Shown in pieces: positions 11,286 to 39,490 of a stretch of 64,000 nucleotides of DNA. A program made the translations under genes and the position numbers. Below the pieces are notes generated by a model, which had not been told where the DNA came from, ran no database searches, and saw nothing but the letters and a program-made list of their open reading frames with translations. The DNA comes from Sulfurivermis fontis (GTDB lineage Bacteria; Pseudomonadota; Gammaproteobacteria; Thiohalomonadales; Thiohalomonadaceae): NCBI RefSeq assembly GCF_004001245.1, contig NZ_AP018724.1, forward strand, positions 2,348,501 through 2,412,500, in the 5' to 3' direction. Every line of letters starts with the position of its first letter. Positions within the stretch are counted from its first letter, which is position 1.

Positions 11286-11490
11286 GGAAGCTCTGAATAA
11301 GTTCAGAGCTTCCGCGGCACAGGGATGTGCCGCCATTTTTCAACGACGATAAGTCGTTGAAAAATGAAGCCAAGCGAAAATCACACTTTTCGCTTGGCGT
11401 GGTTTTGTCCACGGATGGACTTATGTCGCGCAGCCCAGGGAGGGGCGGGAGCGACCTGAGAAGTCCAGGATGGACTTATTCAGACCTTCC
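11286..11490 (+). mobile_element. MITE copy 1, long form (IS5-like ends)
   Basis: A 205-bp non-coding element flanked by the direct duplication TTAG (11282-11285 and 11491-11494). The left end starts GGAAGCTCTGAATAAGT; the right end read inward is GGAAGGTCTGAATAAGTCC. These ends resemble the IS5 terminal repeat GGAAGGTGCGAATAAG. The interior is a chain of hairpins: the left end itself, GCGGCACAGGGATGTGCCGC, a CAACGAC...GTCGTTG hairpin, a CCAAGCGAAAA...TTTTCGCTTGG hairpin, and AAGTCCAGGATGGACTT near the right end. The long form carries about 52 extra bases (family D unit) between the last two hairpins. No coding capacity. Confidence 0.9.
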
Positions 11491-38264: not shown

Positions 38265-38386
38265 GAGTGCGCCTCGCCTCCGCTCGATGCCTTCATGATG
38301 GCGCAGCCGCCGGCGGTACGCCAGTCCATGTCCATTGCCGGCTATTTTTTGTATGCTTGGCGGGCGCATCAGGCAAGGAGACAGCG

Positions 38387-38878
38387 ATGACACAGCACAA
38401 CGCCAGCGACAACAACGAGTTCGAGAAGCTCATCCGCTGCAACATGGTCGGGCCGCACGGCGAAAAGAGCGTGCGCTTCGTGGCTCTGGAGCACTTCTCC
38501 CTGTGGGAATACATGATGCGCAGCCGCCACGGCTTCGAGTGCAGCGATTATGCCATTGGAATATGGCTGCCGGCGGATGAATTCGAGCGCAAGGCTCACA
38601 TCTTCAGCCACAGTGGCAATGTCGAGGCCGTGGGCCGCTTCAACTTCTCCATCTACGATCCCACCTACCACTACACCTACACCGCATCACGCTTCGTGCC
38701 GGATGCCGATGCGGAACGCTTCCGCCAGGCCATGCTGGAGCACATCCCGGAAGAGGTCCGCCGCAGCAACCGCTTTGACCTGGAGGCGATCCCCGGCTAC
38801 TGCATCGAGAAGGACAACGTGGCCAACCGCTCCAGCCTGGTGCTGGACCTGTACCACGGCTTGCACGACATTTACTGA
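38387..38878 (+). CDS. Hypothetical protein, 163 residues
   Basis: Cytoplasmic, acidic, aromatic-rich protein; CAAGGAGACAGCG is a good ribosome site. The sequence has a central WEYMMRSRHGFECSDYAIGIW and FNFSIYDPTYHYTYTASRFVPDADA. No signal peptide, no metal motif, no domain I recognise. Its 3' end overlaps the end of the broken pcuAC gene on the other strand by 7 bp. Confidence 0.75.
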   Translation: MTQHNASDNNEFEKLIRCNMVGPHGEKSVRFVALEHFSLWEYMMRSRHGFECSDYAIGIWLPADEFERKAHIFSHSGNVEAVGRFNFSIYDPTYHYTYTASRFVPDADAERFRQAMLEHIPEEVRRSNRFDLEAIPGYCIEKDNVANRSSLVLDLYHGLHDIY

Positions 38879-39490
38879 TCCAGGCTGCGTCGATCGCGCA
38901 CGATGAAATCGGTGGTCAGCGCCGAACCGTCGCGGAAAGTAAGAGTTATCGAAGCTCTGAATAAGGGAAGCTCTGAATAAGTTCAGAGCTTCCGCGGCAC
39001 AGGGATGTGCCGCCATTTTTCAACGACGATAAGTCGTTGAAAAATGAAGCCGAGCGAAAATCACACTTTTCGCTTGGCGTGGTCTGAAAGTCCAGGATGG
39101 AGTTATTCAGACCTTCCTTATGGGGATGCGTGCGTCGGCATGCATGCCGCGGCTCTTGTACAGCATCAGGTGGTAGCCGGTTTCGTTGCTGAATACCAGG
39201 CTGCCATGGGGCGGAACCTCCAGCACCTCCTGCAACACCATACGCGCCGTGTCGTTCACCACCACCGACTGGTGGATATCGATGTTCTCCGCATTGGGAC
39301 TGAAGGCGCCGATGAGATATTTCGGCATGTCGCCGTCGTTGTGTAAAACCATCCAACCCGCCGTCACCGCAATCAGCGGTGGGATCTCCGGAATCCAGGC
39401 CCCCTCGACCCGGATCATGGCCGGCTCCTGCCCGGCACAGGCCAACAACAGCAATGTGACGACAAACAGCAGGATTGTGCGCATGGACAT
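38872..39490 (-). pseudogene. PCuAC-type copper chaperone split by a MITE
   Basis: The N-terminal part (39490 to 39122) encodes a lipoprotein (LLLLACAG) with the PCuAC copper motif: MVLHNDGD, IDIHQS, ARM and GYHLML. After HADARIPI the frame enters the MITE and stops three codons later. The missing end, ITLTFRDGSALTTDFIVRD plus seven codons and TAA, lies beyond the element (38946 down to 38872). Removing the 168-bp element and one TTAT duplication restores one frame of 149 codons ending in the usual G-x-x-L-T-F-x-x-G C-terminus. PCuAC delivers copper to cytochrome oxidase CuA or CuB. The 127-residue remnant keeps all copper ligands. Confidence 0.85.
38950..39117 (+). mobile_element. MITE copy 3, inside the copper chaperone gene
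   Basis: 168 bp flanked by TTAT (38946-38949 and 39118-39121). The left end is unusual: the first 15-16 bases (GAAGCTCTGAATAAG) occur twice in tandem, the outer copy with one mutated first base (C for G). The interior matches the 153-bp short form. Confidence 0.9.

Follow-up and report, generated by a model that had tools for sequence, protein, structure and literature searches.

A non-autonomous MITE of the IS5 type has very probably transposed into a PCu(A)C copper-chaperone gene of Sulfurivermis fontis, with duplication of the target TTAT and, most likely, loss of function of the gene product. The site lies in the window, i.e. the whole stretch of 64,000 nucleotides that was analysed, in a genome that consists of a single contig of 3,246,214 bases. 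Taken alone, the interruption is an ordinary insertional pseudogenisation, a clean MITE pseudogene; of wider interest is the element itself, which belongs to a known kind, the MITE, as a new variant, possibly with a link to CsrA. The five-hairpin build of the element, its GGA loops and its wide spread are described here in addition to what a preliminary description had reported on the gene. Should CsrA be what maintains the core of the element, this would link selfish repeats to global regulation.

Anatomy of the interrupted gene

According to the preliminary description, the minus-strand PCu(A)C frame runs to ...HADARIPI, enters the element and picks up again beyond it as ITLTFRDGSALTTDFIVRDRRSLDQ*, and taking out 168 bases plus the 4 of one TTAT yields a gene of 149 codons including the stop (38872-39490). 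Direct reading of the sequence agrees on both junctions, and the reconstruction is correct to the base. The frame starts at 39490 and meets the insert, which occupies 38950-39117 (168 bp) between the two TTAT copies, at 39117 (Table 1); the insertion point of the MITE lies in the last sixth of the gene. The 3' remnant matches the C-termini of L038-L040. On the 5' part, Pfam PF04314 scores 60.6 bits over profile positions 1-93 of 109, so that the domain is not covered over its whole length. The product is lipoprotein-like, judged by an LLAC motif. The strand of the element that carries the GGA loops is antisense to the PCu(A)C gene and codirectional with the convergent gene.

Table 1. Features at the interrupted PCu(A)C gene (window coordinates)
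Feature	Position	Strand	Remark
Truncated PCu(A)C open frame	39107..39490	-	ends in the element with the tail RKV and a stop
Orphaned 3' remnant of the PCu(A)C gene	38872..38949	-	25 codons and stop, still in frame
MITE canonical body, five hairpins	38966..39117	+	152 bp here, 153 bp in the consensus
Additional left terminal repeat, in tandem	38950..38965	+	16 bp
Target duplication TTAT, left	38946..38949	.	4 bp
Target duplication TTAT, right	39118..39121	.	4 bp
Hairpin H2 with GGA loop (ACAGGGATGT)	38994..39013	+	CsrA-like motif on the + strand
Convergent gene, unknown product	38267..38878	+	stop overlaps the original PCu(A)C stop; left intact

The empty site in related genomes

A search for the PCu(A)C gene in 39 genomes, own genome included, gave a match at E 1e-5 or better in 20 of them. 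Within the genus, the genes of G001, G002 and G004 (76%, 69% and 64% identity) are continuous across the insertion site and have closely similar C-termini, while no close match was found in G003, a genome that is 84% complete. Since three genomes of the same genus read through the site, the split gene is not a product of chance. A scan of genome contigs with the PCu(A)C gene gave five named loci, L106-L110, from MAG RS263_metabat.bin.44, Thiohalomonas denitrificans MAG BE2011_63_42, HGW-Gammaproteobacteria-1, Sedimenticola sp. BM503 and HKST-UBA182; the first three loci (L106-L108) come from the same genomes as G001, G002 and G004, the gene sequences being identical. In all five relatives the protein is full length with its C-terminus kept, and the element is absent from the orthologous site. 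L106-L108 also have the gene order in common: nifJ precedes the PCu(A)C gene and the convergent gene follows it; neither neighbour was found within the 3-kb flanks of L109 and L110. The combination that the preliminary description had named as evidence to the contrary, namely relatives with the element at the same position and a conserved short protein, was sought and is absent in these five relatives.

Fate of the truncated product

The junction falls after residue 122, and the last strands of the model of the full-length L106 protein span residues 119-126 and 131-139, so that the truncation removes half of one beta-strand and all of the last one. An in-frame RKV and a stop come from the target duplication together with the end of the element, and the product therefore ends inside the second-last beta-strand. 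The proposal that the copper ligands stay while the last strands go is thus borne out: four likely ligands are present in the truncated product, and about one and a half beta-strands are missing from it. The ligand-like residues H71, M82, H105 and M107 are invariant in all six aligned rows and are retained; they fit H..M..HxM, which we take to be the copper-ligand motif of PCu(A)C. The L106 model matches the solved PCu(A)C chaperones DR1885 (1x9l), TTHA1943 (2k6w), SCO3965 (3zk0) and AccA (9yah), by Foldseek with E from 6.4e-11 (best, 3zk0) to 1.5e-6 and also by phmmer, whereas in the window copy the final one and a half strands are missing.

In AlphaFold2 the full-length L106 protein reached a pLDDT of 87.1 and a pTM of 0.75 on a shallow alignment of 6 rows in all, while the truncated protein of the window, modelled from these six rows as well, reached 54.7 and 0.41, its confidence being low from about residue 21 onward. 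We infer that the truncated product most likely neither folds nor works. It is improbable that the short protein still functions as a minimal copper binder by virtue of having all ligands upstream of the junction: the four conserved H/M residues do remain, no stop interrupts the 5' frame and nonsynonymous difference there is well below the synonymous one, but the lost part amounts to a full strand plus half of a second in the model of the relative, the model of the truncated protein is of low confidence over most of its length, and the full C-terminus is retained by 5/5 relatives.

The nonsynonymous difference from G001 is 0.128 in the remnant and 0.093 in the core, and compared with G002 and G004 both parts of the gene are more distant than the corresponding parts of G001. 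Constraint on the gene has likely been relaxed, to judge from these substitutions, and not in the remnant alone; as nonsynonymous change is raised on the own lineage in the remnant as well as in the 5' part, the relaxation may predate the insertion. A second PCu(A)C gene (L057, G000:C1:1710871-1711233; 38% identity) has no stop inside, and its presence elsewhere in the genome may have made the loss tolerable.

The element family in its own genome

In the genome, exact matches to the 15-base end GGAAGSTCTGAATAA number 114 in forward and 120 in reverse orientation, against none for a reversed control pattern. Copies were mapped from the window and 90 further loci of the genome, which were the 30 best BLAST matches and 60 of 100 places listed for the end, and thus not a random sample; 85 copies had both ends. 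As is typical of a MITE, the mapped copies are short (153 bp in 49 copies and 205 bp in 25, with the others near these lengths or rearranged), contain no long gene and have terminal inverted repeats, with the ends GGAAGCTCTGAATAAG / GGAAGGTCTGAATAAG. The 205-bp form differs by an extra G-rich stretch of about 52 bp. The 30 closest copies have 0-3 differences relative to a single consensus. The largest departure among them is that of the window copy, with 3 differences and, in addition, the extra 16-bp end. One element of the 205-bp form lies in the window at 11286-11490, with an exact TTAG duplication and a G-rich insert of ~52 bp before its right end, and further copies or ends are seen at about 36452, 43307, 53645 and 55112. 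The 153-bp element had no match in plasmid and phage collections.

Exact 4-bp duplications flank 72 of the 85 mapped copies. Together with the empty site in the relatives, they uphold the placement of a MITE inside the PCu(A)C gene and the view that the family has been mobile in this lineage. The IS5 family has the target YTAR, and 59 of the 72 exact duplications have this form. The TTAT of the window copy is off the consensus; ATAA is found at three other mapped copies, and L163, in another genome, has a TTAT duplication too.

Gene positions around the copies were obtained with a home-made gene caller based on codon usage. By this measure 29 of the 85 copies abut the stop codon of a neighbouring gene exactly (16 on the left, 13 on the right, none on both sides), with an exact duplication in 24 of the 29. 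As YTAR contains TAA or TAG, an insertion at a stop codon restores the stop. A gene stop lies inside the element, at any depth, in only two of the 85 copies, namely the PCu(A)C copy and L206, where only the last few residues are changed. The YTAR sites of the window are intergenic in 38 cases, at stop codons in 9 and inside genes in 21; gene-breaking copies are therefore rarer than the site frequency would give, which fits selection against them. The gene caller replaced an earlier test for interrupted genes based on open reading frames crossing the element: a crossing frame of at least 100 aa was found in 15 of 30 copies, the PCu(A)C copy included, and 12 of the 14 others were read and appeared by eye to be chance frames in GC-rich DNA.

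The window copy departs from the canonical element of 152-153 bp by its tandem left end, and the TTAT duplication fits the outer left end and not the inner one (TAAG vs TTAT). The doubled end could reflect two events, an older end being present at the site and a second element having inserted beside it or recombined with it. That only the outer end has a matching duplication agrees with such a history, and the left end is likewise doubled in one other mapped copy, L208 (221 bp), where the duplication CTTA matches the inner end, as if the element had gone into an older end. The arrangement in the window, however, is the reverse of that in L208, and slippage that duplicated 16 bp of the end, whether it preceded or followed the insertion, accounts for the sequence more simply, so that we consider two events a rather doubtful explanation.

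A chain of hairpins with co-varying stems

When folded on either strand, the window copy forms consecutive hairpins (z -12.4 and -13.4), and none of 200 shuffles folded as well. Covariation was assessed in an alignment of 19 elements from 8 genomes (own, G001, G004, G034, G038, G040, G041 and G047), for which 17 of 20 stretches were used; L128 and L130 were left out for unclear ends, and L121 for an odd hairpin 5 and close sisters. The five consensus hairpins have 89.7% paired cells, compared with at most 49.6% in slid controls, and 73 cells changed on both sides, compared with a shuffled mean of 23.7 (0/500) and at most 23 in slid controls; hairpin 1 is partly misaligned, which lowers these figures. 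The number of further pair types (42 vs 38.8; 57/500) was the sole measure of five not clear of its control. From this covariation, the 153-bp element is read as a string of five hairpins with co-varying stems. Furthermore, hairpins 2-5 of the sense strand have 36 G-T against 12 A-C cells (15 vs 10 pairs), related rows being counted repeatedly, and this excess speaks for the sense strand being the molecule that folds.

Spread of the core and exchange of terminal repeats

By BLAST, the element was found in 11 of 56 genomes, own genome included, with one end only in G018. When 274 genomes of the class were searched at E 1e-5 with a covariance model of the core (hairpins 2-4, built from 24 sequences), 44 of them had a match, again including the own genome. 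The terminal repeats fall into three classes: class A, GGAAGSTCTGA, which is IS5-like; class B, GAGGGTGTCGCAAAA, with a 5-bp duplication in 3 of 6 loci scanned; and class C, CAGGCTGTTGAAAAA, with a 4-bp duplication in 4 of 7. The class B elements L131, L164 and L176 have GAGGGTGTCGCAAAA-like ends together with 5-bp duplications, and a duplication of this length would imply a different transposase. L173 is a hybrid that has a class C left end, a class A right end and an exact TTAA duplication. At L142, L143 and L145, all in G038, the hairpin core is repeated head to tail about every 122 bp, and the L143 array adjoins what by eye appears to be a tRNA gene.

Intergenic palindromic repeats, some of them mobilised in trans, are known as REP/REPIN, ERIC, RUP, NEMIS and RU-1/2/3; the present element is likewise intergenic and palindromic, and its comparison with them by sequence covers the families present in Rfam. 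No Rfam family reached threshold on the element. In the window copy, hairpin 2 gave a near-miss to RsmV (E 0.23; 13.4 bits against a gathering threshold of 100), and among 7 loci scanned the L182 copy gave one to Qrr (E 0.75; 23.5 bits against 50). A literature search by word and by sequence found no description of the element among the papers listed, the sequence matches being unrelated by title.

GGA loops and the candidate link to CsrA

GGA loops were counted in 67 loci, two of which were skipped; after removal of the false locus L170 and of repeats, 60 distinct elements were left. The loop of hairpin 2 contains GGA in 57 of them and that of hairpin 5 in 49, compared with 4 for hairpin 3 and 0 for hairpin 4; within ±3 bases of the loop the counts are 58, 56, 7 and 1, respectively. 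Hairpin 2 reads RCANGGANGY in 55 of 61 distinct elements, the false locus L170 being among the 61 and accounting for one miss, and ACANGGANGU in 47 of the 61, with both N positions varying; the ACA-N-GGA-N-GU hairpin by which a CsrA-binding RNA is recognised is thus present in these 47. The elements were found by similarity to the core, so that invariant positions are partly selected for, and the pattern is informative in that hairpins 3 and 4 behave differently and in that the N positions vary. A single csrA gene is present in the genome.

In a review, the SELEX consensus of CsrA is given as RUACARGGAUGU, where ACA and GGA do not vary and a single ligand lacks GU, the preference of RsmE as an ANGGAN loop and the CsrB repeats as CAGGA(U/A/C)G (PMC7652899). 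The same review remarks that very stable stems may be disadvantageous for CsrA binding, and in that light the long stems of the element speak against it (PMC7652899). The element resembles the CsrA-sequestering RNAs of the CsrB/RsmY/RsmZ type in having GGA in hairpin loops, the ACANGGANGU motif and, in hairpin 5, CAGGAUG. It differs from them in that it is a dispersed mobile repeat and not one dedicated sRNA gene, that its short form has only two GGA hairpins as candidate binding sites, and that Rfam gave only a sub-threshold RsmV fragment.

The family might tentatively be regarded as a mobile CsrA/RsmA-binding RNA cassette, in which a conserved core of five hairpins, two of them with GGA loops, moved by at least two kinds of transposase and present in high copy across Gammaproteobacteria, would titrate CsrA or mark transcripts; the two kinds of transposase rest on the three terminal-repeat classes and the 4-bp and 5-bp duplications. 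It is slightly more likely than not that the hairpins are a mere by-product of transposition or of transcription termination, with no host protein bound. MITE transcripts in general fold stably, as stated in one study (PMC10969869), and the sense strand of the element shows no clear orientation bias, which would be expected if transcription mattered: in 78 copies of the own genome with neighbours on both sides, both neighbours are co-directional in 24 and both opposed in 17. A by-product does not readily account for the retention of GGA loops in hairpins 2 and 5 and not in 3 and 4, a pattern that extends to elements with another kind of terminal repeat; that the core keeps its hairpins and GGA loops while the terminal repeats change suggests that it is maintained by something other than recognition by a transposase.

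Source of the transposase

The element shares with the MITEs and ISs of the IS5 family its terminal inverted repeats, 4-bp YTAR target, many near-identical copies and, as in the MITEs, a short non-coding body and the presence of an IS5-family transposase in the genome; it differs from them in that its body is a chain of five co-varying hairpins and that this core is also found between other terminal repeats and, in some genomes, next to duplications of 5 bp. The genome contains an IS of 1158 bp in five copies (four identical, one with 3 differences), whose transposase is of the IS5 family (NF033581, 352.9 bits against a cut-off of 140), and exact YTAR duplications flank 4 of the 5 copies. Two IS copies lie directly beside MITE ends. 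The element would be moved by a transposase acting in trans, most likely one of the IS5 family that resembles the enzyme encoded by the five IS copies, and mobilisation by the resident 1158-bp IS is plausible. Its ends agree with those of the MITE at 12/16 and 14/16 bases and are thus not identical, so that the active transposase may be another, perhaps lost. By its ends, the MITE appears related in kind to the resident IS, and direct descent from it is not supported.

A full-length IS with identical ends was found neither among the PF05598/PF01609 matches of the own genome nor in 23 PF01609 loci from seven of nine relatives searched. At position 1246 of L098 (G033), an end with one mismatch from that of the MITE, flanked by TTAG, lies beside a decayed IS5-like transposase; the second end was not found there, and L098 is possibly a relict of a closer partner of the MITE. 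In the sequence adjoining one of the IS5-family copies (L032, 435-1433), the translation repeats VHPRVRGEH/RFIPACAGNT, which looks to be a type I-E CRISPR array.
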